Origin: Hyphomicrobiales bacterium | GTDB taxonomy: Bacteria > Pseudomonadota > Alphaproteobacteria > Rhizobiales > Aestuariivirgaceae | Assembly: GCA_016185245.1 (NCBI GenBank) | Contig: JACPNZ010000016.1 | Location: 124,001-188,000, forward strand | Length of the DNA: 64,000 nt | Direction of reading: 5' to 3' | In this document: positions 15,409 to 57,358 of the stretch, one piece after another | Numbering within the stretch: position 1 is the stretch's first letter | How the letters are laid out: every line of letters starts with the position of its first letter | Program-made: the position numbers and the translations under genes | The notes under the pieces: model-generated | Databases searched by the model: none | What the model was told of the DNA's origin: nothing | Seen by the model: the letters and a program-made list of their open reading frames with translations, nothing else

Positions 15409-15418
15409 GGAAGGCACA

Positions 15419-42686: not shown

Positions 42687-43712
42687 TCACGGCAGATTAT
42701 CGCGCACGAAGATGTCGATGCGGATGCGCTCCTGGGACTCGATCAGCGGCACATTGTCGGCCTTGGCCAAGAGCACGCGGACCGCACTTCTCACCTCATG
42801 GCCGGCATCCTGGTTGATGATCGCATCGATGGTGCCGCGGATGAGGCCGCGCCTGGTGGGGTCGGTCAGTTCGTGGGCGATGAACACGATGTCGCGGGCC
42901 CGGCCCGCCGCTTCGAGTCCGGCCACGATACCGCGCGTGCCGCCGCCGACGTTGTAGAGGCCGATCAGGTCGGGATGCTCGGCGAGAAGCTGCGCCGTCA
43001 TCGCCTCGAGCTTTTGCCAGTCGTCGCGCGACTCGCGCACCGGCAGCACCTTGAGGTGGGGGAACTCATGGGTCATCAGTTGCTCGAAGCCGAACTGCCG
43101 CTCGATATGGTCGCGCAGCGCCAGCGAGCCGGCGATCAGCCCAACCTTGCCGGAGAGCCCGCGCAGGAAGCGGCCCATCAGATTGGCGGCAGTACGCCCG
43201 GCCGAGGAATTATCGATCCCGGCATAATGCGCCCGCTTCGATCCCGGCACGTCGGAGACCAGCGTCACCACGCTGACGCCGCGCGCCTGCAGCGCGTTGA
43301 TCGCCTCGCGCACCGCCGGATGGTCGAGTGCCACCACGGCGATGCCATCGTAACCTTCGCCGATGGCGTCAAGCGCCTGGGCCAGCGCTTCGCCGTCGAA
43401 CACGTCGACCTGGCGCGCGGTGATCGTCACCCGCTCGCCCGCCATGCGGTCGGCCATCAACCGCACCTCGTCGGCGATTCGCTGCCAGAACTCGCTGCTG
43501 CGGGCCGGTAGCACGAAGCCGAAGCGGTATTGGCGCGAGCGTGCCAGCCTGGCGGCGATCCGGTCCGGCTGGTAGTTCAATTCGCGGATCGCCGCCTCGA
43601 CCTTGCTGACGGTCGCGCCACGCACGCCGGGCCTGCGGTTCAGCACCCGGTCGACGGTTGCAACGCTGACGTTCGCCGTACGGGCCACATCCTGGATGGT
43701 GACCTTGGCCAC
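42687..43712 (-). CDS. LacI-family transcriptional regulator of the LIV-type operon
   Basis: A 341-residue regulator. The N-terminal helix-turn-helix reads VTIQDVARTANVSVATVDRVLNRR and is followed by the hinge helix PDRIAARLARS. A periplasmic-binding-protein-like sensor domain follows (YGFVLPARSSEFWQ...; GVSVVTLVSDVPGS). GTG 43712 has AAGGGGG upstream and lies only 2 nt after the livM stop, so the regulator is the last gene of the transporter operon. It is probably autoregulated with it and likely senses the imported compound or a product. Confidence 0.92.
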   Translation of the reverse strand: MAKVTIQDVARTANVSVATVDRVLNRRPGVRGATVSKVEAAIRELNYQPDRIAARLARSRQYRFGFVLPARSSEFWQRIADEVRLMADRMAGERVTITARQVDVFDGEALAQALDAIGEGYDGIAVVALDHPAVREAINALQARGVSVVTLVSDVPGSKRAHYAGIDNSSAGRTAANLMGRFLRGLSGKVGLIAGSLALRDHIERQFGFEQLMTHEFPHLKVLPVRESRDDWQKLEAMTAQLLAEHPDLIGLYNVGGGTRGIVAGLEAAGRARDIVFIAHELTDPTRRGLIRGTIDAIINQDAGHEVRSAVRVLLAKADNVPLIESQERIRIDIFVRDNLP

Positions 43713-43714
43713 GC

Positions 43715-44668
43715 TCAGTCCCCCTTGAACCTGATGGGCGGCGAGGCTTCCGGTATGAGCCCCGACCGGAATTTCTGCAGCACGAATTGCAGCAGGAGCC
43801 CGATCAGCAGGATGCGGATATAGGACGAGCGGGTGATCCACTCCGGCGGCAGCAGTTGGTTGGTGAGGATCTCCGTCATCGACCAGATGGCCCAGATGCC
43901 GAGGCCGCCGGCGATCGCCCCCTTGTTGTTGCCGGAGCCGCCGGCCATCAGCATCACCCAGACGAGGAAGGTGACCATCAGCGGCTCGGTCGCCGCCGGC
44001 GACAGGAACTTGAATTCATGGGCCGTCAGCCCGCCGGCCACACCCATGATGGCGCAACCGATCACGAAGGTCTGCAGTCTGAACCGCTCGACATCCTTGC
44101 CGGCGGCGCGTGCCGCCGCCTCGTTGTCGCGGATCGCCCTGAGCGTCCGCCCCCACGGGCTGTCATGCAGGCGCTGGCTCACCACATAGGCGGCCGCCAC
44201 GATCACCCAGACGAAGCCGAGGAACAGGAGATCGGCGGCACGGCCTTGAACCCACCCGTCGAAGGGCCGTGGAATTCCGGCGATACCCAGGCTGCCGTTG
44301 GTGACCCGTTCCGCGTTGACGATGACCAGCCGCAGGATTTCGGCGATGCCGATCGAGGCCATGGCGAGATAGTCGCTCTTCAGCCGCACGCAGATCTTGG
44401 CCACCGCCCAGCCGGCAAGCCCCGCCAGCACCGCCGCCGCCACAAGCCCCACCGGCACCGGCATTCCGAAGCCGCCCAGGTGCTTGTCCGATGGTGCCGT
44501 GGTCATGATCGCCGAGGCATAGGCCCCGACCGCGAAGAAGCCGGCGATGCCGGCATTGAACAGCCCGCCCATGCCCCACTGGATGTTGAGAGCCAGGCAC
44601 AGGATCGCATAGATGCCGCTGGCGATGAGAAAGCTGACCAGATAAAAGAACAGGCCGGTCCATTCCAT
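43715..44668 (-). CDS. livM: branched-chain amino acid-type ABC transporter permease LivM
   Basis: A 317-residue inner-membrane permease with about nine hydrophobic helices and the LivM hallmarks NIQWGMGGLFNAGIAGFFAVGAY, LRLKSDYLAMAS-like VRLKSDYLAMASIG, and the EAA-like loop SPWGRTLRAIRDNEAAARAAGKD that contacts the ATPases. The start codon shares a base with the livH stop (TGATG). It forms the channel with LivH. The system is LIV-type (HAAT family), which also moves aromatic compounds, amides and ureas, so the name does not define the substrate. Confidence 0.93.
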   Translation of the reverse strand: MEWTGLFFYLVSFLIASGIYAILCLALNIQWGMGGLFNAGIAGFFAVGAYASAIMTTAPSDKHLGGFGMPVPVGLVAAAVLAGLAGWAVAKICVRLKSDYLAMASIGIAEILRLVIVNAERVTNGSLGIAGIPRPFDGWVQGRAADLLFLGFVWVIVAAAYVVSQRLHDSPWGRTLRAIRDNEAAARAAGKDVERFRLQTFVIGCAIMGVAGGLTAHEFKFLSPAATEPLMVTFLVWVMLMAGGSGNNKGAIAGGLGIWAIWSMTEILTNQLLPPEWITRSSYIRILLIGLLLQFVLQKFRSGLIPEASPPIRFKGD

Positions 44669-45558
44669 CAGAGCAGCCTCCCGCGGAACAGGCCCTGGGG
44701 CCGGAAGATCAGCAGCGCCACCATGATGAGAAAGCCCACCGCCGTCTTGTAGGAGGGCGAGATCAGTGGATTGTCGCCGACCCAGTTGTAGGTCGAAAGC
44801 TCCTCGGCAAGCCCGATGATGAAGCCCCCGGCGATCGCTCCCATGGGCTTGCCGATACCGCCGAGGATGGCGGCAGCGAACATGGCAAGTTGCAGGTTCC
44901 AGCCGAGATTGGGATGAACGGTCGTATCCATGCCGGCGAACACCCCGGCGATTGCCGCAAGGGCCGCGGCGATCACCCAGGTCCAGCGGATCACCTTTTC
45001 GGTGTCGATGCCGGCGACGGCGGCAAGCTCCGGCTCGTCGGAGACGGCGCGCATGGATCGCCCGGTTTTCGAGCGCGTGAGGAAGAGGTGCAGCGCCACG
45101 GCAATGACCAGCGTCAGGGCAATCGCCTCGGCATGGAGGGCGGCGATGCGGAAAGTACCGAACAGCACCAGGGGCGGCGTTACCCCCTTGACCAGCACCT
45201 GGTTGTCGGAACTCCACAGGAGTTGGGCCAGCGAGCGGAAGATGAGCGCCACGCCGAACGACGATATGACCGTGTAGATGGTGGCCAGCTGGCGCAGCGG
45301 CCGGTAGAAGAAGCGGTCGACGGCAAGTGCGGCGGCAATCGCCAGTGCCGCTCCCACCGGTATGAGCAAGAGAGGATGGACCGGCACAAACCACACGGCA
45401 GTCAGCACCCCATAGGCTCCGACCGTCATCAGGTCGCCATGGGCGAAATGGGCAAAGCGCAGGATGCCGAAGATCATCGAGATGCCGACCGCCCCCAGCG
45501 CGTAGATGCTGCCGAGAGTGAGCGCCGGAATGAGATAGTAGTTGATGAACTCGATCAT
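44668..45558 (-). CDS. livH: branched-chain amino acid-type ABC transporter permease LivH
   Basis: A 296-residue permease, helices throughout, with the LivH signatures LGSIYALGAVGISMIFGILRFAHFAHGD and the cytoplasmic coupling loop TRSKTGRSMRAVSDEPELAAVAGID. AILGGIGKPMGAIAGGFIIGLAEEL also matches. It overlaps livF upstream by 4 nt and livM downstream by 1 nt, so the whole transporter is translationally coupled. Confidence 0.94.
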   Translation of the reverse strand: MIEFINYYLIPALTLGSIYALGAVGISMIFGILRFAHFAHGDLMTVGAYGVLTAVWFVPVHPLLLIPVGAALAIAAALAVDRFFYRPLRQLATIYTVISSFGVALIFRSLAQLLWSSDNQVLVKGVTPPLVLFGTFRIAALHAEAIALTLVIAVALHLFLTRSKTGRSMRAVSDEPELAAVAGIDTEKVIRWTWVIAAALAAIAGVFAGMDTTVHPNLGWNLQLAMFAAAILGGIGKPMGAIAGGFIIGLAEELSTYNWVGDNPLISPSYKTAVGFLIMVALLIFRPQGLFRGRLL

Positions 45559-46277
45559 GCTGCTTCGCCCCCGCCCAGGAAGGAGCGGCGCACATTGTCG
45601 TTGGCGAGAAGTTCCGCCCCGCTGCCGGAGATGAAGTTGCGGCCATTGACCAGCACATGGGCTCGGTCGGCGATGCGCAGCGCTTGCCGGGCGTTCTGCT
45701 CGACCATCAAAATGGTGACGCCGGTCTTGCGCACGTCGAGAATGAGATCGAAGATTTTTTCGAGGTAGGCCGGCGATAGCCCGGCGGTGGGCTCGTCGAG
45801 CAGCAATAACCTGGGCTCGCTCATCAGGGCGCGGCCGATCGCCACCATCTGGCGCTGGCCGCCGGAAAGCTCGCCCGCCGGCTGGCCGAGCTTGGCGCGA
45901 AGATCGGGAAACAGCGCCAGGATGTTCGCCTCGGTGCGGGCCCGGTCGCGCGGCGGGGCGGCATAGGTGCCGATATCGAGGTTTTCGGCGACCGTCAGAT
46001 TGGGAAAGACGTTGCGGTTCTGCGGCACGGCGGAAATGCCGATCGGCACCAGTGCGGCGGTGGCAAGGCCCGTGATGTCGCGCCCCGCCATCGCAATGGT
46101 GCCGCCGGCAATTTTTGTCAGCGCGAAGATCGACTTGAGCAGCGTCGATTTGCCGGCCCCGTTGGGCCCGATGATCACGGCAACGGCGTTCTCTTCCACA
46201 TCGAGATCGACGCCCTCGATGATCGGCATGCCGCCATAGCCCGCCGTCAGCCCCTGCACCGAAAGGAGCGCCGTCAT
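45555..46277 (-). CDS. livF: branched-chain amino acid-type ABC transporter ATPase LivF
   Basis: A 240-residue ATPase with Walker A GPNGAGKSTLL, the LivF-type AVPQNRNVFPNLTVAENL segment, signature LSGGQRQM, Walker B LLLLDEPTAGLSP and a switch His in LMVEQNARQAL (Gln-Asn type as usual in LivF). Coupled by ATGA overlaps to livG upstream and livH downstream. It energises import with LivG. Confidence 0.94.
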   Translation of the reverse strand: MTALLSVQGLTAGYGGMPIIEGVDLDVEENAVAVIIGPNGAGKSTLLKSIFALTKIAGGTIAMAGRDITGLATAALVPIGISAVPQNRNVFPNLTVAENLDIGTYAAPPRDRARTEANILALFPDLRAKLGQPAGELSGGQRQMVAIGRALMSEPRLLLLDEPTAGLSPAYLEKIFDLILDVRKTGVTILMVEQNARQALRIADRAHVLVNGRNFISGSGAELLANDNVRRSFLGGGEAA

Positions 46278-47047
46278 GCCCGGCCCTCGTATTTGCCGCC
46301 GCCGAAATAGGCCTCGATGACCCGCTCGTCGCGCCGCACCTCGGCGGCGCTGCCGCGAGTAAGGACCTCTCCCTGGGCCATCACCACCACATTGTCGCAG
46401 AGCTTCGACACATAATCGAGGTCGTGCTCGATCAGGCAGAAGGTGAGCTGCCGGCCGGTGTTGAGCTCCTTGATCTTGTCGGCGATCTTGGCCAGCAGCG
46501 TCCGGTTGATGCCGGCGCAGATCTCGTCGAGCAGGACGATCTTAGGCGCCCGCATCAGCGCCCGGCCAAGCTCCAGGAGCTTTTTCTGGCCGCCCGACAG
46601 ATTGCCCGCCTTTTCGTCGCTCACCCGGTCAAGCTCGAGAAACCGCACCGTCTGGCGCGCCGCACGGGTCACCGCCTCTTCCTCGGCGAGAAACCGGCTG
46701 CGGCGGAACACCACGTTCAGCACATTTTCGCCAAGCGGTGCCGCCGCCGCCGCCATGAAATTCTCGAGCACCGAAAGCCGCGAGAACTCGTGCGGGATCT
46801 GGAAGGTGCGGGCCAGCCCCAGGGCAGCGCGTTCATGGGGCTTCAGCTTGGTGATGTCAGCGCCTTCGAGGAGCACCCGGCCCGAGGTCACCGGAACATG
46901 GCCGGCAATCGCATTGAACAGCGTCGTCTTGCCCGCCCCATTGGGACCGATGAGCCCGGTGATGCGGCCCGAAGGGATGTCGAAGCTCACATTATTGACG
47001 GCCTTGAGGCCGCCGAAGCTGACACTCACGTGATCGAGGCTGATCAT
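46274..47047 (-). CDS. livG: branched-chain amino acid-type ABC transporter ATPase LivG
   Basis: A 257-residue ATPase with Walker A GPNGAGKTTLFNAI, the LivG-type LGLARTFQIPHEFSRLSVLEN segment, signature LSGGQKKLLELGRAL, Walker B KIVLLDEICAGIN (Cys-Ala-Gly instead of the common Pro-x-Ala-Gly) and switch His in LIEHDLDYV. ATG 47047 is supported by GGAGG 8 nt upstream; the in-frame ATG at 47071 is unlikely. Confidence 0.93.
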   Translation of the reverse strand: MISLDHVSVSFGGLKAVNNVSFDIPSGRITGLIGPNGAGKTTLFNAIAGHVPVTSGRVLLEGADITKLKPHERAALGLARTFQIPHEFSRLSVLENFMAAAAAPLGENVLNVVFRRSRFLAEEEAVTRAARQTVRFLELDRVSDEKAGNLSGGQKKLLELGRALMRAPKIVLLDEICAGINRTLLAKIADKIKELNTGRQLTFCLIEHDLDYVSKLCDNVVVMAQGEVLTRGSAAEVRRDERVIEAYFGGGKYEGRA

Positions 47048-47094
47048 CGGGAGACCTCCGCGGCCGGCCAACCGGCCGCGGAGCGGTCATGCCG

Positions 47095-48297
47095 TTACTG
47101 CATCACCGCGGTCTGCTTGTACTTGTCGCCGTCGACCACGAACTTGCCGATATAGCCGGTGACATCGCCCGCCGCATCGAACACATAGGCGCCGCCGGCT
47201 CCGGTATAGGTGATGTCCTTGCCGTCCTTGATCAGCTGCTTGGCCTTAGCCCATTCGCCGGGGCCGATCTTCTCGCCCTTGCCGGAGCCGATGGCCCGGA
47301 GCGCCGCCGCCATCTTGGTTCGGTCGGCCGAGCCCGCCTTCTCAATGGCGAGCAGCGCCATGAAGGTCGCGTCATAGGTCTGGTCGACGAAGGCCTTGTC
47401 GGCGCCATCCTTGTAAGCGGCGTTGAATTCGTCATGCAGGGTCTTCTGGGCCGGATTGTCGGCCGGCGACGTGGGGGACGAGAAGAACGAGGTCTTGAGC
47501 GCGTCCGCCCCCACCTGCTTGATCAGCGCCTCGTCGCGCAGACCGTCGGTGCCGATGAAGCGGGTGAACAGGCCCCCTTCGATCGCCTGCTTGACGATGG
47601 TGCCGCCCGAGTCGCCGGCATAGGCCACGACCACCAAAGCTTCGGCTCCGCCCTTGGCCAGCGCCGCCAGCTCCGAGCGATAGGAGTTCTTCTTCTCCTC
47701 GTGCTTTACCTCGACCGCCACTTCGCCGCCGAGCTTCTTGTAGGCGTCGATGAAGGTCCGGCCGATGCCGACGCCGTAGTCGTTGTTGACATAGGTGACG
47801 GCGACCTTCTTGAGGCCCTCCGCGAGCACCATCTTGGCCAGCACCTCGCCCTGGTAATTGTCGGAGGGAACCACCCGGAACAGGAGATCGTTGTCCTTGA
47901 TGCCGGTGATGGCGGGCGACGTGGCGGTGGGCGAAATCTGCACCACGCCGGCCGGGATCGACACGGCTTCGGCCGCCGAAATGGTGGTGCCCGACATCAG
48001 CGCTCCCATGATGATCGGCACGTTCTCGATATTGACCAGCTTGCCGACCGCGTCGACGGACCCTTGCGCCGAGCCGGTGGTGTCGCCGTAGACGGCGACC
48101 GCCTTGCCGTCGAGCAACCCGCCCTGGGCGTTGACCTGGGTGATGGCCAGATTGGCGGCGTTCTGCAGCGGCGGAATGAAGCTGGCGATCGGCCCGGTGA
48201 TATCCATCAGGATACCAACCTTGGTGTCGTCGGCGAAGGCCAGCGTTGTCGAACCAAGAAGTGCGGCGGCGGCAAGTGCGATCAACGATTTTTTCAT
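47095..48297 (-). CDS. LIV-type periplasmic substrate-binding protein
   Basis: A 400-residue Peripla_BP_6 protein with a Sec signal peptide (MKKSLIALAAAALLGSTTLAFA, cleavage near 22) and a two-lobed ligand domain (KVGILMDITGPIASF; MSGTTISAAEAVS; VNNDYGVGIGRTF; YDATFMALLAIEKAG). A strong GGGAGGGAAG site precedes the ATG. It delivers the substrate to LivHMGF. As it is expressed together with a kynureninase-like enzyme and a cupin protein, the ligand may be an aromatic amino acid derivative or a cyclic amide rather than leucine (inference from context). Confidence 0.93.
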   Translation of the reverse strand: MKKSLIALAAAALLGSTTLAFADDTKVGILMDITGPIASFIPPLQNAANLAITQVNAQGGLLDGKAVAVYGDTTGSAQGSVDAVGKLVNIENVPIIMGALMSGTTISAAEAVSIPAGVVQISPTATSPAITGIKDNDLLFRVVPSDNYQGEVLAKMVLAEGLKKVAVTYVNNDYGVGIGRTFIDAYKKLGGEVAVEVKHEEKKNSYRSELAALAKGGAEALVVVAYAGDSGGTIVKQAIEGGLFTRFIGTDGLRDEALIKQVGADALKTSFFSSPTSPADNPAQKTLHDEFNAAYKDGADKAFVDQTYDATFMALLAIEKAGSADRTKMAAALRAIGSGKGEKIGPGEWAKAKQLIKDGKDITYTGAGGAYVFDAAGDVTGYIGKFVVDGDKYKQTAVMQ

Positions 48298-48364
48298 GTC
48301 TTCCCTCCCTTTGGAATAGTGCCGGATGCTACTTGAACGGGCTTCGGTCTGTCACCAGAAATCG

Positions 48365-49450
48365 CTAAGGCACGCTGGTTTTGAAGGTCCCCGGCAACGA
48401 CACCTCGAGCAGCTCGAGGCCCGGCGTGGCGCCGGCGTAGCGCGTCGCCAGGCCCGGCGGAACGACAAAGGCATCGCCCGGCGCCAGGCGATAGGGCTCC
48501 TTGCCTTCACCTTCGAGGGTCATTTCGCCCTTCATCACGAAACTGAACAGGATATCGCCGTCGTGCCGGGTCCATGGCGAGGCTTGCCCCGAGGGTCTGG
48601 CCACCATGACCGAGGCGACACCCCTGGTGTTCTCGCTAATCGTCGTATCGCGGGCTTCGAAGCCGGGGATGCGGAACGGCCTGAACACCCCCGACCTGGC
48701 CAGATTATGGACGAACTTCTGGCCCTCCCACTCCCGCTCGGGCCGCGGGCTGGCGGTTGGCAGGGTCATCACATGGTCGATCTCGGTTACATGCTCGGCT
48801 GGAACTCCGATCTCGATCACCTCGATGCCGTCGCCCGCCTGCAGCACCCGGTGGCGGATCATGGGCGGCTGGATGAAACAATCGCCGGCGGTGAGCCGCA
48901 ACGGACCGCCCTGGTCCTCATAGACCACATCGACCCAGCCCTTGAGACAGAAGATCAGCTGGAAGCCGACCTTGTGAAAATGCACCATGTCGGGCACCGG
49001 GCCATCGGGCACGCGGATATGCGAGGCAATGACCGCACCCCCCAGCCGCGACGGCACCAGGTCGCGATACTCCATGCCGGCGCGGCCGATGATCCACGGC
49101 GCCTGATCGGCGAGCCTCCGCACCACGAAAGCATGCCTGGTCGGCGGCAGCACCAGCGGCGGATTCAACTTATCGATTTCGATTTTCGTTCCGTTGGGAG
49201 CGATCAGTTCGCGCTTGCCATCGGCGAATTGATCCGGGTCTTCGGTGAGGATGCGGATCGTACCGGGCGCTTCCTTCGCCCCCTTCTCAATGCGGATGCG
49301 CAGGCCGTGGCCCGACAGCACCGCCACCTGCGGGTAGTCGGCCGGATAGATCATGTCGAGCCGCAGCTTCAGAACCTTCGTGTAGAACGGCAGATCGTCG
49401 CGCAATTCGTGCGTCGGAAGCCTGATCTCGGCGCGGGTTTCGCTGCTCAT
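48365..49450 (-). CDS. VOC-like/bicupin protein, possible dioxygenase or lyase
   Basis: A 361-residue protein. Residues ~10-60 look like a half glyoxalase/VOC module (PTHELRDDLPFYTKVL...VAVLSGHGLRIRIEKG). Residues ~145-225 form a cupin with probable metal ligands His-x-His (MVHFHKVGFQ) and a later His (QPPMIRHRV); Gln stands where the cupin Glu is usual. A second cupin at ~290-355 (FVMKGEMTLEGEG, GDAFVVPPG) lacks the distal His and may be structural. Bicupins often are Fe(II) dioxygenases. The start overlaps the kynureninase-like gene by ATGA. I cannot name a substrate. Confidence 0.72.
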   Translation of the reverse strand: MSSETRAEIRLPTHELRDDLPFYTKVLKLRLDMIYPADYPQVAVLSGHGLRIRIEKGAKEAPGTIRILTEDPDQFADGKRELIAPNGTKIEIDKLNPPLVLPPTRHAFVVRRLADQAPWIIGRAGMEYRDLVPSRLGGAVIASHIRVPDGPVPDMVHFHKVGFQLIFCLKGWVDVVYEDQGGPLRLTAGDCFIQPPMIRHRVLQAGDGIEVIEIGVPAEHVTEIDHVMTLPTASPRPEREWEGQKFVHNLARSGVFRPFRIPGFEARDTTISENTRGVASVMVARPSGQASPWTRHDGDILFSFVMKGEMTLEGEGKEPYRLAPGDAFVVPPGLATRYAGATPGLELLEVSLPGTFKTSVP

Positions 49451-50682
49451 ACGGATACCTTGGCGTATTTCGGCTGTCTCCAGATAGTTTCGGCCAGCAC
49501 GCGCTTCAGCCGTGCGACCGCCTCCCAGCAGTCGGCGTGGCGAATGACCAGTGGCGAGACGCCGAAGCGAATGGCGTCCGGCTGGCGGAACGAGGAGACC
49601 ACACCCGCGTCGATCAGCGCTTCGACGACCGATCCGGCACCGGGCGAGGAGAACGACACATTGCCGCCGCGCCGGCCATGGTCGCCGGGCGAATTGACCA
49701 CCACACCCAATGACCCACATTCCTGCTTCAGTGCGGCAATCAGGAAATCGGTGAGCGATTTGTGCTTGGCCCAGAGCTTTGCCGGATCGACCTTGGGCCA
49801 GACATCGAGCATGGCGGAAGCGAGCTCGTCGGCACCGACCAGCGGCGTGCCGGTGAGGAATTTCTTGACGCCCCCATGGGGCGCATAGTCGCGGGCGAAG
49901 GCATAGACATCGGCATGGCCCATCCAGCCGGCGAGCGCCGGCCAGACCTCATCGCCCAGCCCCCGCTTCACATAGATGAAGGCGGGGCCGCCCGGTCCGG
50001 CGCAGAGATATTTATAGCCGCAGCCCACGGCGAAATCGGCATCCGCACCCCTCACGTCGACCGGCACCGCACCGGCCGAGTGCGAGACGTCCCAGACGGT
50101 GAGCACGCCCTTGGCGTGAGCCGCCGCCGTCACCCGCCCCATGTCCCAGCGCCCGCCCGAGCGGTAGTCAACGTGCGACAGGGCCGCCACCGCCACTTCG
50201 GCGTCCATCGCCGCCACCGCCTCGTCCTCGCTGTCGACAAAGCGCAACGACAACCGCCCTTCGGATGCTGCGGCGATCCCCTGCAGCACATGCACGTCGG
50301 TCGGGAAATTGCCGTTCTGGGTGAGAAGCGTGCGCCGTTCGGGGCGAAGCGTCAGGGCATGGCTCACCGCCTTGAACTGGTTGAGCGTGGTCGAATCGCA
50401 CATCACCACCTCGCCCGGCCCCGCCCCGATCAGCGGTGCGATGCAATCGCCGAGCAGCGACGGCATCTCCAGCCATTGCCGCTGGCTCCAGCCGCGCCGG
50501 CGCAGGTTCACCCAATCGTCGAGCAGTCCCTTGGCCTTCCCCCTCGCCGCCTTGGGCATGGGCCCCACCGAATTGGCGTCCATGAAGATGACGTCGTCGG
50601 GCAGCTCGAACAGCTCGCGGATCGGCGCCAGCGGGTCTAAGGCATCGAGGGCCTGGGCGGCGGCGGCGGAAAGCGCAGTCAT
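49447..50682 (-). CDS. kynureninase-like PLP hydrolase (divergent paralog)
   Basis: A 411-residue fold-type I PLP enzyme of the kynureninase group. Lys224 in GCGYKYLCAGPG is the Schiff-base lysine and Asp198 (VWDVSHSAGA) pairs with the pyridine nitrogen. The N-terminal DANSVGPMP replaces the usual DGNSLGxxP. Compared with the KynU at 56126-57358, the PLP site is kept. The substrate-facing parts differ: NLRRRGWSQRQW versus NVHGWFDLPRK, and GWMGHADVYAFARDYAPHGGVKKFLTGTP in the active-site loop. It probably cleaves a kynurenine-like beta-keto amino acid but perhaps not kynurenine itself. First gene of the LIV-type operon; no Shine-Dalgarno sequence is visible. Confidence 0.78.
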   Translation of the reverse strand: MTALSAAAAQALDALDPLAPIRELFELPDDVIFMDANSVGPMPKAARGKAKGLLDDWVNLRRRGWSQRQWLEMPSLLGDCIAPLIGAGPGEVVMCDSTTLNQFKAVSHALTLRPERRTLLTQNGNFPTDVHVLQGIAAASEGRLSLRFVDSEDEAVAAMDAEVAVAALSHVDYRSGGRWDMGRVTAAAHAKGVLTVWDVSHSAGAVPVDVRGADADFAVGCGYKYLCAGPGGPAFIYVKRGLGDEVWPALAGWMGHADVYAFARDYAPHGGVKKFLTGTPLVGADELASAMLDVWPKVDPAKLWAKHKSLTDFLIAALKQECGSLGVVVNSPGDHGRRGGNVSFSSPGAGSVVEALIDAGVVSSFRQPDAIRFGVSPLVIRHADCWEAVARLKRVLAETIWRQPKYAKVSV

Positions 50683-50709
50683 GGCCGAAGCTAATCACGC
50701 CCCCGGTTT

Positions 50710-50746
50710 CCTTGCAATACTGAAAGAACCTTGCAATCCTGCAAGG
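50710..50746. promoter_or_regulatory. tandem TTGCA-type operators in divergent promoter region
   Basis: The 82-bp gap between divergent starts (50682 and 50765) holds two 18-bp elements with centres 19 bp apart. The second, CCTTGCA-ATCC-TGCAAGG at 50729-50746, is a perfect 7-bp inverted repeat with a 4-bp spacer. The first, CCTTGCA-ATAC-TGAAAGA at 50710-50727, keeps the left half and is degenerate in the right. The near-helical spacing suggests cooperative binding of a dimeric regulator. Candidates are the XRE-cupin protein at 54500 or the LacI protein at 42687. Confidence 0.7.
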
Positions 50747-50758
50747 CCGCGTCATAAT
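50731..50758 (+). promoter_or_regulatory. putative sigma70 promoter of hyuAB, possibly leaderless
   Basis: TTGCAA (50731-50736) and CATAAT (50753-50758) are separated by 16 bp, close to a sigma70 consensus. Transcription would begin about 50765, the A of the hyuA ATG, and no Shine-Dalgarno sequence is seen, so the message may be leaderless. The -35 lies inside the perfect operator, consistent with repression by a bound regulator. Confidence 0.5.
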
Positions 50759-50764
50759 CCGCCT

Positions 50765-52843
50765 ATGGCCAGACAGATCAAGCTCGCCGCCGATATCGGC
50801 GGCACCTTCACCGACCTGGTGCTCGAAGCGGGCGCCAGGCGTTGGAGCTGCAAGGTTCTGACAACCACCGCCGCTCCCGAACAGGGAGTGATCGAAGGCA
50901 TCGGCCTGGTTCTTGCCCAGTCGGGTCTCAAACCCGCCGATGTCGGCGTCTTTATCCACGGCACGACGCTGGCCACCAACGCCCTCATCGAACGAAAGGG
51001 CGCCAGGACCGCCTTCATCACCACCGAGGGCTTCCGCGACATTCTCGAGCAGGGTTACGAAAAGCGCTTCGACCACTATGACCTGATGATCGACCGCGCT
51101 CCGCCTTTGGTGCCACGCACCCTGCGCTTCACCGTGCGGGAGCGTCTCGCCGCCGACGGCGACGTGCTGGTGCCGCTGGATGAAAGCTCCGTGCACGGAT
51201 TGGCGAAGCGGCTCATCGCCGAGAACGTCAAGGCCGTGGCCATCGGCTTTCTCCACGCCTACGCCCATGACGCCCACGAGTGCCGCGTGCGCGACCGTCT
51301 GGCCAAGGCCCTGCCCAAGGACGTGACCATCTGCCTGTCCAGCGAAGTCGCCCCCGAGATCCGCGAATTCGAGCGCTTCTCCACCACCGTCGCCAATGCC
51401 TATGTGCGCCCCCTCATGTCGGGTTACCTGCATCGCCTCAGCGACCGGATGAAGGACATGGGTCTTACGGCACCGCTCTTTCTCATGATGTCCGGCGGTG
51501 GCCTGACAACCCTCGAAACCGCCGTGCGCTTTCCCATCCGCCTGGCCGAGTCGGGTCCCGCCGGCGGCGCCATTCTGGCGAGCCAGATCGCCGCCGAGTG
51601 CGCTCTTGGCGAAGTCCTCTCCTTCGACATGGGCGGCACTACCGCAAAGATCTGTCTCCTCACCGACGGCGAGCCCGAACGGGCCCGCAAGTTCGAGATC
51701 GCCCGGGCCTATCGCGACATGAAGGGTTCCGGCATCCCGGTGCGTATTCCAGTGATCGAGATGGTCGAGATCGGCGCCGGCGGCGGTTCCATCGCCCGGG
51801 TCGACAGGCTGAAGCGCATCACCGTCGGCCCCGACAGCGCCGGCTCGACGCCGGGGCCTGTCTGCTACGGCCGTGGCGGCACCGAGCCCGCCGTCACCGA
51901 TGCCAATCTGGCGCTGGGCAAGATCGACCCCGCCTATTTCGCCGGCGGCAAGATCAGGCTCGACGAGAAGAAAGCCGCTGCGGCCTTGCAGAAGATGATC
52001 GGCACTCCCCTGGGCCTCAAGGATTTCTGGCCCGCCGCCGGGGTCACTGAAATCGTCGAGGAGAACATGGCCAACGCCGCCCGTGTCCATGCCATCGAGC
52101 GCGGCCGCGATATCGCCTCCTGCACCATGATCGCCTTCGGCGGCGGAGCACCTCTGCATGCCTGCCGCCTCGCCGAGAAAGTGGGTGTGGCCAGGATCAT
52201 CGTGCCGAAGGGTGCCGGCGTCGGCTCGGCCATCGGCTTCCTCCGCGCCCCCGTCGCCTATGAGATCACCAAGAGCGCCGTCGTCTCGCTGGAAAAATTC
52301 GACGCGGCCCGCGTCAATGCCATGCTGACCCGGATCACCCGCGACGCCCGCGCCGTGGTCGAGTCGGCGCTTGCCGGAGCGAGGCCCATCGTCCAGGTGA
52401 TCGCCGACTGCCGCTATGTCGGCCAGGGCCATGAAATTCGCGTGCCCGTTCCGGTTCGCAAGCTCACGGAAAAGGACGGCGCCAAACTTAAGGCCGCCTT
52501 TGAGCGCCTCTACGAGCAGGTCTATGGCCTCCGCATCCCCAACCAGGAAGCCGAAGCCATCACCTGGTCGGTCACCGTCTCCTCGAAGCCGGTGAAGGCC
52601 AAGCGCGCCGCCCCGGCCGCGAAGAAAACCCCGCCCCAGCCCCGCAGCAAGCGCCCGATCTACGATCCGGCCTTGGGCCGGCAAGTCTCCGTCCCCGTCT
52701 ACTGGCGTTTCGACATGAAGGAGGGTGCCGCCATCACGGGCCCTGCCATCATCGCCGAGGATGAGACCTCGACCATCGTCGGCGCCAACTTCACGGCTGC
52801 CATCAACAGCCTCGGCTACATCATCCTGGAGCGGGTGAAATGA
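50765..52843 (+). CDS. hyuA: hydantoinase/oxoprolinase subunit A (HyuA family)
   Basis: A 692-residue protein with the N-terminal hydantoinase_A_N actin-like ATPase part (LAADIGGTFTDLVLEAG), HGTTLATNALIERKGARTAFITTEGFRD, the central hydantoinase_A domain (MSGGGL, ESGPAGG, DMGGTTAKICL, GAGGGS) and the C-terminal domain. A Lys/Ala/Pro-rich linker lies near residues 605-635. Together with HyuB it forms ATP-dependent amidohydrolases of the 5-oxoprolinase/N-methylhydantoinase type (some relatives are carboxylases). The stop overlaps the hyuB start (ATGA). The substrate is unknown; the neighbouring importer and kynureninase-like gene suggest a cyclic amide or lactam. Confidence 0.92.
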   Translation: MARQIKLAADIGGTFTDLVLEAGARRWSCKVLTTTAAPEQGVIEGIGLVLAQSGLKPADVGVFIHGTTLATNALIERKGARTAFITTEGFRDILEQGYEKRFDHYDLMIDRAPPLVPRTLRFTVRERLAADGDVLVPLDESSVHGLAKRLIAENVKAVAIGFLHAYAHDAHECRVRDRLAKALPKDVTICLSSEVAPEIREFERFSTTVANAYVRPLMSGYLHRLSDRMKDMGLTAPLFLMMSGGGLTTLETAVRFPIRLAESGPAGGAILASQIAAECALGEVLSFDMGGTTAKICLLTDGEPERARKFEIARAYRDMKGSGIPVRIPVIEMVEIGAGGGSIARVDRLKRITVGPDSAGSTPGPVCYGRGGTEPAVTDANLALGKIDPAYFAGGKIRLDEKKAAAALQKMIGTPLGLKDFWPAAGVTEIVEENMANAARVHAIERGRDIASCTMIAFGGGAPLHACRLAEKVGVARIIVPKGAGVGSAIGFLRAPVAYEITKSAVVSLEKFDAARVNAMLTRITRDARAVVESALAGARPIVQVIADCRYVGQGHEIRVPVPVRKLTEKDGAKLKAAFERLYEQVYGLRIPNQEAEAITWSVTVSSKPVKAKRAAPAAKKTPPQPRSKRPIYDPALGRQVSVPVYWRFDMKEGAAITGPAIIAEDETSTIVGANFTAAINSLGYIILERVK

Positions 52844-54513
52844 AAACGAACGCCCTCGCCGCCATCCGCACCCAGGTCATGTGGAACCGCCTCATCGCGG
52901 TGGTCGAGGAGCAGGCCCAGTCGCTGCTCCGCACCGCTTTCGGTGCCATCACCCGCGAGGCGGGCGATCTCTCCGCCGGCGTCTACGATCCCCACGGCAA
53001 CATGATCGCCCAGGCGATGACCGGCACGCCCGGTCACGTCAACACCATGGCGACCGCCGTTGCCCATTTCTTCAAGCACTTTCCGCAACACACGATGAAG
53101 CCCGGCGACGTCTATGTCACCAACGATCCCTGGCTCGGCACCGGCCATCTCTTCGACTATGTGATGACGACGCCGGTCTTCCTGGGAAAGAAGCTCGTCG
53201 CCTTCTTCGCCTCCACCTGTCATGTGATCGATGTGGGCGGCGTCGGTCTGTCGGCCAAGGCGAATTCAACCTTCGAGGAAGGAACCCTCATCCCCCACAT
53301 AAAGATCAGGAAGGAGGGCAAGCTCAACGAAGAACTCCTCGCCATCATCCTGGCCAATTCGCGCAACCCAGTGGAAGTGCGCGGCGATATCCTGTCGCTG
53401 ATCAGCGCCAACGATACCGGCGCCCGCCGGCTTATCTCCATGATGGAGGAGTTCAAGCTCGCCTCCATCGAGCCCCTGGCCAGGCACATCCTCACCCGGT
53501 CGGAGAAAGGTGCCCGCCAGGCGATCAAGGCGCTGCCCGAAGGCCAATGGTCCTATGAGATGCCACTCGATGGCTATGAGCGCCCCATTACCATCAAGTC
53601 GAAGCTGACCATCCGGCGCGGCAAGATCACCATCGATTTCTCCGGCTCCTCGCCCGCCTCGATCTACGGCATCAACAGCCCACGCACCTACACTCACGCC
53701 TATTCGGTGTTCGGACTGAAGGCGGTGATCGCCCCCCATGTGCCCAACAATATCGGTTCCCTCTCCTGCTTCGATCTGGTGACGGAAGCGGGCACCTGTG
53801 TCGATCCCATCCGCCCTTCACCGGTCACCGCCCGCCATGTCATCGGCCAGATGCTGGCCGATAGCGTCTTCGGCTGTCTCGCCCAGGCGCTGCCCGGCAA
53901 GGTGCAGGCGGAAAGCGCCGGCTCCATCTGGATTCTGGGACTGAACAGCGCCCACGGCCTCGTCCCCGCCGAAGAGACAGCGAAGGCCAAACGCTTTGGC
54001 GTCATCAACATCGGTTTGGGCGGCATCGGCGGCAGGCCCGGCAAGGACGGGCTCGCCACCACCGCCTTCCCCTCGGGTGTCGGCACCATTCCGGTCGAAG
54101 TGACCGAGACCCAATGTCCCCTCTACTTCAAGCGCAAGGAATATCTCCCCGACTCAGGGGGAGCCGGCCAGTGGCGCGGCGGCCTCTCCCAGGCGATCGA
54201 GATCGCCAACCGCGAGCCCGCCCCCTTTACCATTTCCGCCGCCACCTTCGACCGCATCCGCAATGCCGCTAGGGGCCGCGACGGCGGCTTGGCCGGACGC
54301 AAGGGTGTCGCTCGCCGCGGTTCGGGCCAGCCCATTCCCGACAAGGGCGTCCATGTGATCGCCGCCGGCGACAGCCTGGTAGTTGAACTCCCCGGCGGCG
54401 GCGGCTTCGGCGATCCGACCAAACGGGCCGCCGAACTGATCGAAGCCGACCTCAAGGCCGGCGTCGTTTCGGCCGAGGCGGCGCGCAACGACTACGACTA
54501 TGAACCGGCCTGA
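52840..54513 (+). CDS. hyuB: hydantoinase/oxoprolinase subunit B (HyuB family)
   Basis: A 557-residue hydantoinase_B protein: early SLLRTAFGAITREAGDLSAGVYD, the GDVYVTNDPWLGTGHLFDY motif, HVIDVGG, PEVRGDI-like VEVRGDILSL, and the C-terminal GGAGQWRGGLSQAIEI and GGGGFGDPTKRA motifs. It is the catalytic partner of HyuA. The 3' end overlaps the XRE-cupin regulator gene by 14 nt, so regulator and enzyme are co-expressed. Confidence 0.92.
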   Translation: MKTNALAAIRTQVMWNRLIAVVEEQAQSLLRTAFGAITREAGDLSAGVYDPHGNMIAQAMTGTPGHVNTMATAVAHFFKHFPQHTMKPGDVYVTNDPWLGTGHLFDYVMTTPVFLGKKLVAFFASTCHVIDVGGVGLSAKANSTFEEGTLIPHIKIRKEGKLNEELLAIILANSRNPVEVRGDILSLISANDTGARRLISMMEEFKLASIEPLARHILTRSEKGARQAIKALPEGQWSYEMPLDGYERPITIKSKLTIRRGKITIDFSGSSPASIYGINSPRTYTHAYSVFGLKAVIAPHVPNNIGSLSCFDLVTEAGTCVDPIRPSPVTARHVIGQMLADSVFGCLAQALPGKVQAESAGSIWILGLNSAHGLVPAEETAKAKRFGVINIGLGGIGGRPGKDGLATTAFPSGVGTIPVEVTETQCPLYFKRKEYLPDSGGAGQWRGGLSQAIEIANREPAPFTISAATFDRIRNAARGRDGGLAGRKGVARRGSGQPIPDKGVHVIAAGDSLVVELPGGGGFGDPTKRAAELIEADLKAGVVSAEAARNDYDYEPA

Positions 54514-55081
54514 GAAATCTCCCGACATCGGCGCGCGCCTCAAGGCGCTGCGCAAGGAGCGTGGGGCTTCGCTCGCCGAGCTGGCGAGAGCGACCGGCGT
54601 CTCGGAAGCGACCCTGTCGCGGGTCGAGAACGGCCAGTCGCTGGTCAGCGCCCACCATCTCTATCAGCTCTCCCGCACCCTCGGCGTCGACATCACCGCC
54701 TTCTTCGAGGCGGGCGGCAAGACACTCGCCGGCGGCATCCGCTCCATCTGCCGCAGGGGCGACGGCGTTCCCCTCTCCACCGCCCGCTACGAGGCCCAGG
54801 TGCTGTGCACCGACATCGCCGCTAAGCACATGCATCCGGCGATCAACACCGTCACCATCGCCTCGCTCGCCGAAGCCGGCGGCTTCTCGCGCCACGACGG
54901 CGAGGAATTCCTCCATGTCCTGTTGGGCCGGCTCCTGCTGGTCACCGAGTTCTACGAGCCGCTGCTGCTCGAAACCGGAGACAGCGTCTATTTCGACAGC
55001 CACATGGGCCACGCCTATCTCTCGCCCGATGGCCGACCGGTGCAGATTTTGGTGATCGCCACCACCGAGCCGCCGAAATGA
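54500..55081 (+). CDS. XRE-family regulator with C-terminal cupin domain
   Basis: A 193-residue regulator. The N-terminal HTH is IGARLKALRKERGASLAELARATGVSEATLSRVENGQ (quoted here in parts: recognition helix SEATLSRVENGQ). The C-terminal cupin sensor (~110-190) has EEFLHVLLGRLLLVTE and LETGDSVYFDSHMGHAY. Regulators of this type often sit next to catabolic genes and sense the substrate through the cupin. Its gene lies within the hyuAB operon, and the tandem palindromes at 50710-50746 are its likely target. Overlaps the SRPBCC gene by ATGA. Confidence 0.9.
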   Translation: MNRPEKSPDIGARLKALRKERGASLAELARATGVSEATLSRVENGQSLVSAHHLYQLSRTLGVDITAFFEAGGKTLAGGIRSICRRGDGVPLSTARYEAQVLCTDIAAKHMHPAINTVTIASLAEAGGFSRHDGEEFLHVLLGRLLLVTEFYEPLLLETGDSVYFDSHMGHAYLSPDGRPVQILVIATTEPPK

Positions 55082-55512
55082 CCGCCGGCCAGTCCCACAT
55101 CGCGTCGATCATGGTGAACAAGGACGCCGCCCAGGTCTTCGCCTTCATGGCCGATCCGGCGAAACTCAACCGCTGGTCCTTCGGCACCTGGGAAACCGAG
55201 GTGGCGCCAGATGGCCTGGTCACCGGCACGAGTATATTCGACGGCAACAAAATTCTCGTCCGCATCGATGCCGATCGCGAACGTCTCTCCATCGACTACC
55301 GGTTGGGCGCCGATCCGGCCAGGCTCGTCCCGCGCGTCACTGTCCGTATCATCCCCGGCGCCAACCTCGGCCTCGATGCCGGACACTGCGTCCTCACCTT
55401 CATCGCCTGGCGCTCATCAGCCATGGACGACGATCGCTGGCGGCGTCTGACCTCCTCCCACGAATTCGAAGTGGTGCTGATCAAGAACCTTCTCGAGAAC
55501 GACCGGGCCTAG
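55078..55512 (+). CDS. SRPBCC (START-like) small-molecule-binding protein
   Basis: A 144-residue protein with the SRPBCC pattern: beta strand IASIMVNKDAAQVFAFMADPAKLNRWSFG, then the GTWETEV strand, a central DYRLGADP strand, and a C-terminal long helix (DDDRWRRLTSSHEFEVVLIKNLLEN). Members bind hydrophobic ligands in a cavity; some are cyclases, hydrolases or oxygenase parts. Here it is the last gene of the hyuAB operon (ATGA junction) and may bind or process the pathway compound. Its end overlaps the convergent kynB by 4 bp. Confidence 0.78.
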   Translation: MTAGQSHIASIMVNKDAAQVFAFMADPAKLNRWSFGTWETEVAPDGLVTGTSIFDGNKILVRIDADRERLSIDYRLGADPARLVPRVTVRIIPGANLGLDAGHCVLTFIAWRSSAMDDDRWRRLTSSHEFEVVLIKNLLENDRA

Positions 55513-56129
55513 AGCCTTCGCAGCACCGCCCTGACCGGTGCCGCATCGAGGTTCTCGAAGCGCAGCGGCAGCGCGATCAGTTCGTAATCGCCCGGCGCCA
55601 CATGGGCGAGCACCAGGTTTTCCAGAATGCGCATGTCGGCGGCCCTTGCCGCCGTATGCGCCGGCAGCGCCTTCGAGGTTTCCGGATCGACCGACGGCGT
55701 ATCGATGCCGACCAATGTCACACCCCGCGCGGCCAGCAGCTCGACCGTTTCAGCCGCCAGCGCCCGGAAGCCCGTGGGCCACACTCGCGGGTCCCACCCG
55801 TCCATCAGCCGCAGCAGCACGCGGGGCGGCACGCCACCGAGAAACCGCGCCACGGCCTCGGGCCCGCACAATGCCGAACTCCCCCGTGCGTCGATGACCC
55901 GGCAGGGTCCGACGAACGGATCGAGTCCCAGCCCGCCGATGGCAACACCCTTGGCATCGTAATGCAGCGGTGCATCGGCATGGGTTCCGCAATGGCTGGA
56001 GAAGGCAACCCGCGCCACATTCACCGGACACCCTGGGCCGATGGCGAAGGTCTGGCGCTCCTCGTAGGGCGCATCGCCGGGAAAGCGCGCCATTCCCGGC
56101 GCCAGCGGCTGCGAGATATCGATGATCAT
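55509..56129 (-). CDS. kynB: N-formylkynurenine formamidase KynB
   Basis: A 206-residue cyclase-family metallohydrolase with the zinc motif His46-x3-His50-x-Asp52 (SSHCGTHADAPLHY) and the start MIIDISQPLAPGMARFPGD typical of bacterial KynB. It hydrolyses N-formyl-L-kynurenine to kynurenine and formate. It lies directly after and overlaps kynU (ATGA), so the two enzymes catalyse consecutive steps, giving anthranilate and alanine. No tryptophan 2,3-dioxygenase (kynA) gene is in the window. Confidence 0.93.
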   Translation of the reverse strand: MIIDISQPLAPGMARFPGDAPYEERQTFAIGPGCPVNVARVAFSSHCGTHADAPLHYDAKGVAIGGLGLDPFVGPCRVIDARGSSALCGPEAVARFLGGVPPRVLLRLMDGWDPRVWPTGFRALAAETVELLAARGVTLVGIDTPSVDPETSKALPAHTAARAADMRILENLVLAHVAPGDYELIALPLRFENLDAAPVRAVLRRL

Positions 56130-57358
56130 GTCACCGCCTTGCGGTCGAGAAACTCCGGCCTATCCCACAGGTGCTGGTCAAGAATATCGGCCAGCCGGTC
56201 GACCGCGTCCCACACATCGGTGAAAGACGTATAGAGCGGCGTGAAACCGAAGCGGATCACGTCGGGGGCGCGGAAATCGCCGACCACCTTGCTGGCGATC
56301 AGCGCCTGCATCACCGCATAGCCTTCGGGGCAGCCGAGCGACACATGCGAGCCGCGCTCCCGCCAGTCGCCGGGCCCCATGAGCTTGACACCGTGCCGCC
56401 CGCAGCGCTCGACCGCCAGATCGGCGAAGAGCCGGCACAGCGCCAGCGATTTCTTGCGCACCGCCTGCATGTCGATGCCGTCCCATGGATCGAGCGCCGC
56501 ATCGAGCGCCGCCAGCGAAAGGATGGGCTGGGTGCCGCACTGGTTGCGGACGATGCCGGGTGCCGGCCGGTAGTCGAGATCGAAGGCAAAGGGTGCCGCA
56601 TGACCCCACCAGCCGGCGAGCGGTGGCACGATCTTTTCCTGCAGGTCGGGCCGCACGTAGAGAAAACCCGGCGCTCCCGGCCCACCATTGAGATATTTGT
56701 AGGTGCAGCCGAGTGCCAAGTCGGCATCGGCGGCGGCGAGATCGACCGGCATGGCGCCGGCCGAATGTGCGAGATCCCAGATGGTCAGGGCCCCGGCCTT
56801 GTGGGCCACTTCCGTTACCGCCTTCATGTCATGGAGCCTGGCCGTGCGGTAGTCGACTTCGGTCAACATCACCACCGCCACCCTCTCGTCGATTGCGTCC
56901 AGCACCTCGTCCGGCTCGACCACGCGCAGCTCGTGTCCGACATTCAGGAGATCGCGCAAGCCTTGCGCCACATAGAGGTCCGAGGGGAAATTGCCGCTGT
57001 CGGAGAGAATGACCTTGCGCCCCGGCCTGAGCTTTACCGCCGCCCCCAGAAGTTTGAACAGATTGACCGAGATGGTGTCGCCGGCAATGACACTGCCGGG
57101 TGGCGCGCCGATCAGCTTGGCGATGCGGTCGCCCACCTTGCGCGGCAGGTCGAACCAGCCATGGACGTTCCACGAGGTGATGAGGTCCTGCCCCCACTCC
57201 TTGCCGATCACCTCGGCGATCCTTGCTCCCACATGGCGCGGCAAGATCCCCAGCGAATTGCCGTCGAGATAGATCATCCCCTCGGGCAACACAAAACGCT
57301 GCCGCATCGGGCCGAGCGGATCGGCGCGGTCGAGGGCCTGGCAGTCGGCGCGTTTCAT
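56126..57358 (-). CDS. kynU: kynureninase KynU
   Basis: A 410-residue PLP enzyme with the full kynureninase pattern: LDGNSLGILP (31-40), DSGNFPSDLYV, WDLAHSAGAMPVD with Asp195, Lys221 in GCTYKYLNGGPGAP, and the active-site loop GWWGHAAPFAFDLDY...GIVRNQCGTQP. It cleaves kynurenine to anthranilate and L-alanine. ATG 57358 overlaps the stop of the PP2C-like gene (ATGA); the longer in-frame start at 57424 is unlikely. This is the canonical copy; a divergent paralog lies at 49447-50682. Confidence 0.94.
   Translation of the reverse strand: MKRADCQALDRADPLGPMRQRFVLPEGMIYLDGNSLGILPRHVGARIAEVIGKEWGQDLITSWNVHGWFDLPRKVGDRIAKLIGAPPGSVIAGDTISVNLFKLLGAAVKLRPGRKVILSDSGNFPSDLYVAQGLRDLLNVGHELRVVEPDEVLDAIDERVAVVMLTEVDYRTARLHDMKAVTEVAHKAGALTIWDLAHSAGAMPVDLAAADADLALGCTYKYLNGGPGAPGFLYVRPDLQEKIVPPLAGWWGHAAPFAFDLDYRPAPGIVRNQCGTQPILSLAALDAALDPWDGIDMQAVRKKSLALCRLFADLAVERCGRHGVKLMGPGDWRERGSHVSLGCPEGYAVMQALIASKVVGDFRAPDVIRFGFTPLYTSFTDVWDAVDRLADILDQHLWDRPEFLDRKAVT

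Follow-up and report, generated by a model that had tools for sequence, protein, structure and literature searches.

Which compound is degraded by a locus in which a kynureninase-like gene stands back to back with the two genes of an ATP-dependent hydantoinase or lactamase? Such a locus is found in Hyphomicrobiales bacterium (family Aestuariivirgaceae; assembly GCA_016185245.1), within 64,000 nucleotides of contig JACPNZ010000016.1 (positions 124,001 to 188,000, forward strand); this whole stretch is referred to as the window, and its own positions are used throughout. The kynureninase-like enzyme, KynU-like (49447-50682, minus strand), and the hydantoinase/lactamase subunits HyuA (50765-52843) and HyuB (52840-54513), both on the plus strand, are accompanied by an SRPBCC protein (55078-55512, plus). 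All enzymes of the locus belong to known families; what is new is the conserved combination and the branch of kynureninases within it. The arrangement is not a chance one, because its core is met again in members of four groups of family rank. The locus is real and conserved, and probably represents an undescribed catabolic route in the field of tryptophan and kynurenine.

KynU-like was found in 13 genomes from four family-level groups (f1, f44, f108 and f199), 7 of them from the window's own family. Seven of 150 relatives contain it, including the window's own genome (G000) together with G030, G042, G047, G051, G055 and G059, the last with only part of the gene, at the end of a contig. With a cut-off of E 1e-118, at which divergent members can be missed, it was detected in 3 of 397 genomes of an order sample (adding G430) and in 6 of 385 of a class sample (adding G501, G622, G637, G717 and G793). 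HyuA, HyuB or both adjoin KynU-like or lie within about 5 kb of it in 12 of the 13 genomes; in G793 the contig ends first. The co-occurrence of KynU-like with HyuAB, which the first-pass annotation of this DNA had proposed as a check, is thus borne out.

A gene for an SRPBCC protein follows HyuB, directly or behind a gene for an XRE-cupin regulator, in all 11 genomes with this stretch in view (contig ends hide it in G030 and G793). Identity to the window copy is 34% in G637 and 50-66% in the other nine, and the XRE-cupin gene is present in 3 of the 11 (G000, G430 and G637). The conserved core is therefore KynU-like, HyuA, HyuB and SRPBCC, around which the importer, the bicupin protein, LacI and XRE-cupin are exchangeable. 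Three sensor or regulatory proteins had been counted in the first-pass annotation; LacI and XRE-cupin are indeed of regulator types, but SRPBCC is no less constant than HyuB. This constancy speaks against a merely accessory regulatory role and makes it a conserved partner of HyuB. Its match to a Polyketide_cyc2-like model (23 bits) is slightly below the gathering score of 27.4, and comparison of its sequence with the PDB gave no match better than E 0.047.

The exchangeable parts vary from genome to genome. A protein with a VOC-like part and two cupin stretches (the bicupin) stands beside KynU-like in G000, G030 and G430; in G501, G622 and G717 its place is taken by another two-cupin-stretch protein, with CDGSH iron-sulphur motifs in the scanned G717 copy. 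(CDGSH motifs fused to two cupin stretches were observed in locus L195, at 5972-7036, with homologs in L192 and L193, where VOC-bicupin stands elsewhere.) A luciferase-like monooxygenase, whose nearest NCBIfam model is SfnG (182.8 of 382.95 bits), is present in G042, G047, G051 and G055, and in G042, G047, G055 and G637 there follows a HisC-like aminotransferase. Importers of the LIV (leucine-isoleucine-valine) type occur in G000, G030 (cut off by the end of the contig), G042, G047 and G055, and those of the SBP_bac_5 type in G501, G622 and G717; the neighbours in G430 look like a polar amino-acid importer by eye. Indolepyruvate-oxidoreductase-like genes adjoin SRPBCC in G622 and G717.

Is KynU-like simply a kynureninase? 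It matches KYNU_C (81.3 bits), but it scores 228.0 bits with the kynureninase equivalog TIGR01814, below the curated cut-off of 246.4. Its score against Pseudomonas fluorescens kynureninase (KYN, 1QZ9) is 344 bits, and it is 40% identical to KynU2, the canonical kynureninase encoded nearby (56126-57424, minus). The residues with roles in the kynureninase active site, the lysine for pyridoxal phosphate among them, are kept (1QZ9 numbering: W64, D132, D201, H204, Y226, K227, W256, G281-T282 and R375), and this set is identical in all 11 distinct KynU-like rows aligned with 1QZ9. Around the site, changes are found: NSLG becomes NSVG, NSIG or NSMG, M170 becomes A or Y, and FGFTP becomes FGVSP, FGLSA or LGLSP. 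Pocket residues named in part of a published account are Y226, position 257 and T282 (PMC11704957). In a quick maximum-likelihood tree of 66 of 73 rows (duplicate and partial rows omitted), all 47 canonical rows, including 1QZ9, form a clade that excludes the 11 KynU-like rows, with a Shimodaira-Hasegawa-like approximate likelihood ratio test (SH-aLRT) value of 95; the tree does not settle whether the KynU-like rows are one clade. KynU-like thus shares fold family, length and all checked catalytic residues with the bacterial enzyme, but falls below its model cut-off and outside its clade, and is linked to HyuAB rather than to tryptophan 2,3-dioxygenase (TDO) or the kynurenine formamidase KynB.

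Four genomes of the window's family (G042, G047, G051 and G055) have a separate kynU match, 46% identical to KynU-like, at most 50 nucleotides from a TDO match; the gene maps of G042 and G047 confirm this separate kynU-TDO pair and add a CoA ligase homolog. KynU-like is therefore not the ordinary kynureninase of these four genomes. It is a kynureninase paralog rather than the canonical enzyme, and, given the separate kynureninase in these genomes and KynU2 and KynB next door in the window, probably serves a substrate other than that of the ordinary kynureninase.

HyuA (Hydantoinase_A 273.7 bits, Hydant_A_N 161.6 bits) and HyuB (Hydantoinase_B 463.4 bits) have their domains above the Pfam gathering scores and stand in the order AB with no third carboxylase subunit, the next gene being XRE-cupin (54500-55081, plus). 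HyuB residues D43, H103, D106 and H128 align with D41, H99, D102 and H124 of the caprolactamase subunit CapB (6yra_B), whose Asp-His-Asp-His metal ligands are given in part of PMC8453981. The gene order, the ATP-site motifs and this metal set are shared with the ATP-dependent lactamase family, namely caprolactamase CapAB, N-methylhydantoinase and IaaCE, the gamma-lactamase of the indoleacetate pathway; what distinguishes the window pair is its genetic partners, a kynureninase and an SRPBCC protein. In a tree of HyuA, the KynU-like-linked sequences fall within 33 tips that are at least 61.8% identical to the window's HyuA, all other tips being at most 57.4% identical; identity alone was used, as node support was 0.19 and the root was placed at the midpoint.

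With the caprolactamase CapA equivalog NF050156, HyuA scores 468.7 bits against a cut-off of 1000, and because it is so far below this cut-off, neither hydantoin nor lactam is singled out as its substrate. In one explanation, an aromatic amino acid would enter as its hydantoin (or lactam), HyuAB would open the ring, an amidohydrolase would free the amino acid from its N-acyl or N-carbamoyl form, and KynU-like would cleave it. Plasmid pLA6_009 of Marinibacterium anthonyi (L202, 1124-12840) carries an NtaA/DmoA-type flavin mononucleotide (FMN) monooxygenase and, in a row, an amino-acid importer, an M20 amidohydrolase, HyuA (54%), HyuB and an annotated but distant 'kynureninase'; Paraburkholderia plasmids have an M20 protein, an MFS transporter, a class V pyridoxal phosphate (PLP) enzyme and a bicupin in succession; and in f108 genomes DUF2817 and, in 3 of 4, SBP_bac_5 stand ahead of KynU-like. 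The cluster of the window, however, contains no M20 or carbamoylase gene, a tblastn search at 1e-6 with the M20 protein of Paraburkholderia as its one query matched nothing in loci L031-L034, L191 and L196, and the HyuA score does not favour hydantoin over lactam or the reverse. This hydantoin route is regarded as improbable. The L202 'kynureninase' is without the residues D132, H204 and Y226, and the plasmid locus is possibly a cluster of this kind that arose independently.

The surroundings of the core point in another direction, that of tryptophan and kynurenine. The first-pass annotation ended the locus at 55512; its gene calls all hold, but the interval misses KynB (55509-56129, minus) and KynU2, which flank the cluster and make the kynurenine theme explicit. 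KynB is matched by kynurenine formamidase 4cog at 210.6 bits (1.9e-61) and by isatin hydrolase at 3.6e-4 only, so that isatin hydrolase was rejected as the identity of this PF04199 protein. The importer of the window is a complete LIV-type (HAAT) system of a Peripla_BP_6 substrate-binding protein (SBP; 47095-48297), with a signal peptide-like start and matches to Leu/LIV-binding structures, two ATPases, LivG (46274-47047; ABC_tran and BCA_ABC_TP_C) and LivF (45555-46277), and two BPD_transp_2 permeases, LivH (44668-45558; 152 bits) and LivM (43715-44668), all on the minus strand; the starts of LivG and LivM were picked inside longer frames. The same LIV cassette (SBP 79%) and bicupin (83%) lie next to a kynureninase in an operon of Hoeflea alexandrii (L075), which contains, in this order, a monooxygenase/reductase homolog, genes resembling those for enoyl-CoA hydratase and acyl-CoA dehydrogenase, and genes for a CoA ligase, RidA, kynureninase, TDO, bicupin and LIV (the first names assigned by eye) and is of the tryptophan-kynurenine-anthraniloyl-CoA type. 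Its kynureninase (271.1 bits) and TDO (422.7 bits) are both above cut-off. Where Hoeflea has TDO and a canonical kynU, the window has HyuAB, in a genome without TDO. In G108 and G147, homologs of LacI (54%) and LIV (43-53%) flank kynB-TDO-kynU. LacI, LIV and bicupin of the window therefore all have homologs in tryptophan-kynurenine operons, and this gene context points to an importer ligand of the tryptophan or kynurenine type.

The wider genomes show a similar association. TDO was found in 10 of the 13 KynU-like genomes (the exceptions are G000, G030 and G059) versus 15 of 71 relatives. A match like 2-aminobenzoyl-CoA monooxygenase/reductase over the full length, showing one in-frame stop in 2 of 10 cases, was found in 10 of the 13 (the exceptions are G000, G030 and G501) versus 40 of 150 relatives (the 40 include 5 of the 13). 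The samples overlap and are uncorrected for kinship. Seven TDO-containing genomes (G042, G051, G430, G501, G622, G637 and G717) were without a match to KynB at E 1e-10, and may use a different formamidase.

Taken together, these genes are tentatively read as a locus that takes up and breaks down amino acids of the kynurenine type, the most likely ones being products of tryptophan oxidation from outside the cell. The reactions, ligands and regulatory contacts of this scheme are put forward on the basis of the observed genes, families, catalytic residues and recurrent linkage. The LIV importer would take the amino acid in. HyuAB would phosphorylate and hydrolyse a lactam, with HyuA using ATP and the metal site of HyuB opening the ring, and KynU-like, a PLP enzyme, would then cut the Cbeta-Cgamma bond to give L-alanine and a product of the anthranilate or 2-aminophenylglyoxylate type. 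This product would be oxidised by the bicupin, or elsewhere by the CDGSH-bicupin or the flavin monooxygenase, with KynB and KynU2 processing N-formylkynurenine and kynurenine alongside. Uptake, ATP-dependent ring opening and carbon-carbon cleavage had also been the first-pass interpretation, and they are the natural reading of the genes; its substrate field, an amide or lactam, is too wide, since LIV and bicupin occur with canonical kynureninase and TDO in Hoeflea as well.

Several observations weigh against this reading. No HyuAB was seen within the 10-kb flanks of the Hoeflea loci. The window's own genome, 97.2% complete, gave no match to TDO (PF03301); it is also without a full-length 2-aminobenzoyl-CoA monooxygenase, and no anthranilate dioxygenase match was found at 1e-30. 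This genome thus offers none of the anthranilate routes searched for as an outlet for an anthranilate-type product. The 19.5 kb examined of G051 contained no match to LIV or to the aminotransferase. Among the best 80 bicupin loci, 65, mostly of Rhodobacterales or its genera, have no LIV, kynU or HyuAB in their flanks.

The missing TDO and anthranilate routes, together with adjoining trpE-like and trpD-like genes in the same genome (by eye), would suit plain kynurenine salvage, in which KynB, KynU2 and KynU-like convert imported kynurenine or N-formylkynurenine to alanine and to anthranilate for tryptophan synthesis, KynU-like being a redundant isoform and HyuAB incidental. Such salvage seems quite unlikely as the whole explanation, given the changes common to the KynU-like rows, their place outside the canonical clade and the retention of KynU-like as an extra copy in genomes with a canonical kynU-TDO pair; it also leaves the linkage of HyuAB and SRPBCC unexplained.

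The genus of the window supplies further contrary evidence. HyuA of at least 70% identity occurs in 30 of 37 genus genomes (in some as contig-end pieces), most of which have HyuAB without KynU-like, and 7 of the 30 (G004, G005, G006, G009, G023, G032 and G035; completeness 89% for G005 and 74% for G035) show no kynureninase, with best matches of 5.3e-7 to 6.4e-9. Among five such loci examined, LacI stands beside HyuA in G006, G032 and G035, and none was seen in G004 and G009. In loci L165 and L168 the neighbours of HyuA look like genes of purine or C1 metabolism; in L165 (about 1-16056), a HyuAB ortholog (83-86%) without kynureninase lies, by eye, between genes of trimethylamine/C1 breakdown and of purine breakdown (hydroxyisourate, xanthine dehydrogenase). 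HyuAB can thus exist without kynureninase, as seven genus genomes have a close HyuA and no kynureninase, and the statement that the operons are always one module is too strong, although KynU-like and HyuAB are conserved together.

These loci would be expected if the window held two independent units, HyuAB (often with LacI) for an unrelated lactam and a kynurenine unit of KynU-like, bicupin, LIV, KynB and KynU2, whose divergent promoters merely share space. This possibility is doubtful. It is opposed by the proximity of HyuAB to KynU-like in 12 of 13 genomes, including distant families with another gene order, and by G430, where hyuB, xre, srpbcc, bicupin and KynU-like follow each other on the same strand, overlapping or closely spaced. 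It is further opposed by the genus kynU loci, of which 14 of the 22 examined carry HyuAB, 7 of them as LacI-HyuA-HyuB-KynB-KynU. In 14 canonical kynU loci outside the genus (L046-L050 and L062-L070, some with short flanks), used as a control, no HyuA or HyuB match was found. LacI orthologs adjoin HyuAB or kynU in genus relatives, and a contig of G040 that starts inside hyuA continues with hyuB, xre, srpbcc, kynB and kynU2 in the order of the window, XRE-cupin included. The window looks like the LacI-HyuA-HyuB-KynB-KynU core with a block of KynU-like, bicupin and LIV between LacI and HyuA. A molybdenum-hydroxylase-like gene set was also observed by eye near kynU in genus relatives (L037 and L040, about 11400-15340).

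If the locus does serve kynurenine-type amino acids, which one would require both HyuAB and KynU-like? The favoured candidate is dioxindolylalanine, a tryptophan oxidation product, whose use would constitute an undescribed bacterial pathway; it is suggested by chemistry and neighbouring genes only, and taken by itself is still rather unlikely. Its oxindole lactam would be opened by HyuAB with ATP to 4-hydroxy-4-(2-aminophenyl)glutamate, which KynU-like would cleave by a retro-aldol reaction to isatinate and alanine. A retro-aldol cleavage of dihydrokynurenine by kynureninase is known. The arylglyoxylate could then reach anthranilate or anthraniloyl-CoA through the bicupin, the CDGSH-bicupin, the flavin monooxygenase or a 2-oxoacid:ferredoxin oxidoreductase. 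Isatinic acid is placed on proposed routes to anthranilate in indoleacetate breakdown in part of PMC8383072. Two other candidates were rejected. Auxin-type substrates (oxindoleacetate and conjugates) were set aside, since the substrate of a kynureninase must be an alpha-amino acid and R375 is retained in KynU-like, and ring-opened oxindolylalanine has no gamma-hydroxyl or gamma-keto group, which is needed for cleavage.

The bicupin (48365-49450, minus, 361 amino acids) had been called a VOC/bicupin protein; the two Cupin_2 stretches are present, whereas a Pfam search at 1e-3 gave no hit to a VOC model, and the N-terminal part of about 95 amino acids, predicted as beta-alpha-beta-beta-beta, is half-VOC-like. 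In the first cupin H157, H159, Q164 and H200 are invariant; the second keeps H296 without a full metal set. The predicted model (pLDDT, the predicted local distance difference test score, 73.7) resembles quercetinase-type bicupins, with seed globulins scoring alike, and the fold points to bicupin oxygenases, gentisate and salicylate dioxygenases having been considered. Compared with quercetinase YxaG and salicylate 1,2-dioxygenase, the protein has 16% identity, an extra N-terminal part and an incomplete second metal set, and no NCBIfam model is assigned to it. A role as an alternative formamidase would fit Hoeflea L075, a TDO-kynU operon in which no kynB was seen, but misfits G042, G051 and G637: these three contain TDO and are without a KynB match at 1e-10, yet their KynU-like loci include no bicupin.

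Scanning of genome contigs with an alignment of seven bicupins gave at least 585 relatives, of which the best 80 were examined. In 15 of these 80, most or all of the LIV cassette lies directly behind the bicupin (72-81% identity; SBPs 75-80% identical to that of the window). Just upstream, 9 of the 15 have a canonical kynU (8 titled Hoeflea and one metagenome-assembled genome, MAG) and the other 6, from two Roseibium, Labrenzia, Oricola, Mesorhizobium and one MAG, have a class V PLP enzyme that is only distantly related. In L097 and L125 (Rhodobacterales), the bicupin is divergent from a malic-enzyme-like gene and lies near pyrimidine-nucleoside genes, by eye. The Paraburkholderia plasmid loci L073 and L074 (about 6900-15050) include LysR besides the M20 peptidase, MFS, class V PLP and bicupin genes; L074 additionally has SDR and dienelactone hydrolase genes.

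How might the two operons be controlled together? Two tightly packed divergent operons sharing an 82-bp region had been described in the first-pass annotation, and start and stop coordinates agree: the gap between the KynU-like and HyuA start codons (50682 and 50765) is exactly 82 bp (50683-50764). Neighbouring genes overlap by 4 nucleotides (KynU-like/cupin, LivG/LivF, LivF/LivH, HyuA/HyuB and XRE/SRPBCC), by 1 (LivH/LivM) or by 14 (HyuB/XRE), or are separated by gaps of at most 67 (cupin/SBP 67, SBP/LivG 47, LivM/LacI 2). KynB and KynU2 overlap each other by 4 nucleotides, and KynB is convergent with SRPBCC, also with a 4-nucleotide overlap. The far end of the minus-strand operon is the gene for the LacI-type regulator (42687-43712, minus; LacI helix-turn-helix and Peripla_BP_4), whose GTG start at 43712 was picked inside a longer frame.

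The control region contains tandem operator-like sites, CTTGCAATACTGAAAG and CTTGCAATCCTGCAAG, 19 nucleotides apart (50711-50745, plus). The one-mismatch pattern has three matches in the window, none of them outside this region; one of the three is the second site read on the opposite strand (mean expected by chance, 0.08). The second site overlaps a -35-like TTGCAA, which is followed after a 16-nucleotide spacer by CATAAT (50753-50758), ending 6 nucleotides before the hyuA start; three such -35/-10-like sites were found versus 2.0 expected by chance. No Shine-Dalgarno-like stretch precedes hyuA, by eye, and the hyuA transcript may be leaderless. The same site pair is present in G030, whose contig stops short of the XRE gene, and two TTGCAA occur in the XRE-containing G637, whereas no TTGCAA was found in the control stretch examined of G042, G047, G055, G501, G622 and G717, which have no XRE gene in place. 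This distribution suggests that XRE-cupin acts at the TTGCAA tandem sites; LacI and XRE-cupin would regulate the locus, the XRE protein probably at these sites.

No described pathway with this combination had been known to the first-pass annotation, and the literature search gave the same result: no paper with both 'kynureninase' and 'hydantoinase' and no description of the combination were found (most subscription journals lie outside the search), and 'kynureninase' with 'cupin' gave none on bacterial bicupins by title. Among the papers listed, none dealt with bacterial catabolism of oxindole forms of tryptophan, by title or beginning of abstract. To our knowledge, no such catabolism has been described. 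Oxidised tryptophan residues (oxindolylalanine, N-formylkynurenine and kynurenine) occur in photosystem proteins, according to part of PMC10665015.

If the substrate were confirmed, a function would be assigned to a branch of enzymes that annotation would simply call kynureninase, and one of many unassigned HyuAB pairs would receive its substrate. Otherwise, the work still provides a conserved four-gene core of KynU-like, HyuA, HyuB and SRPBCC whose substrate field is sharp and testable, and a starting point for work on a widespread bicupin protein.

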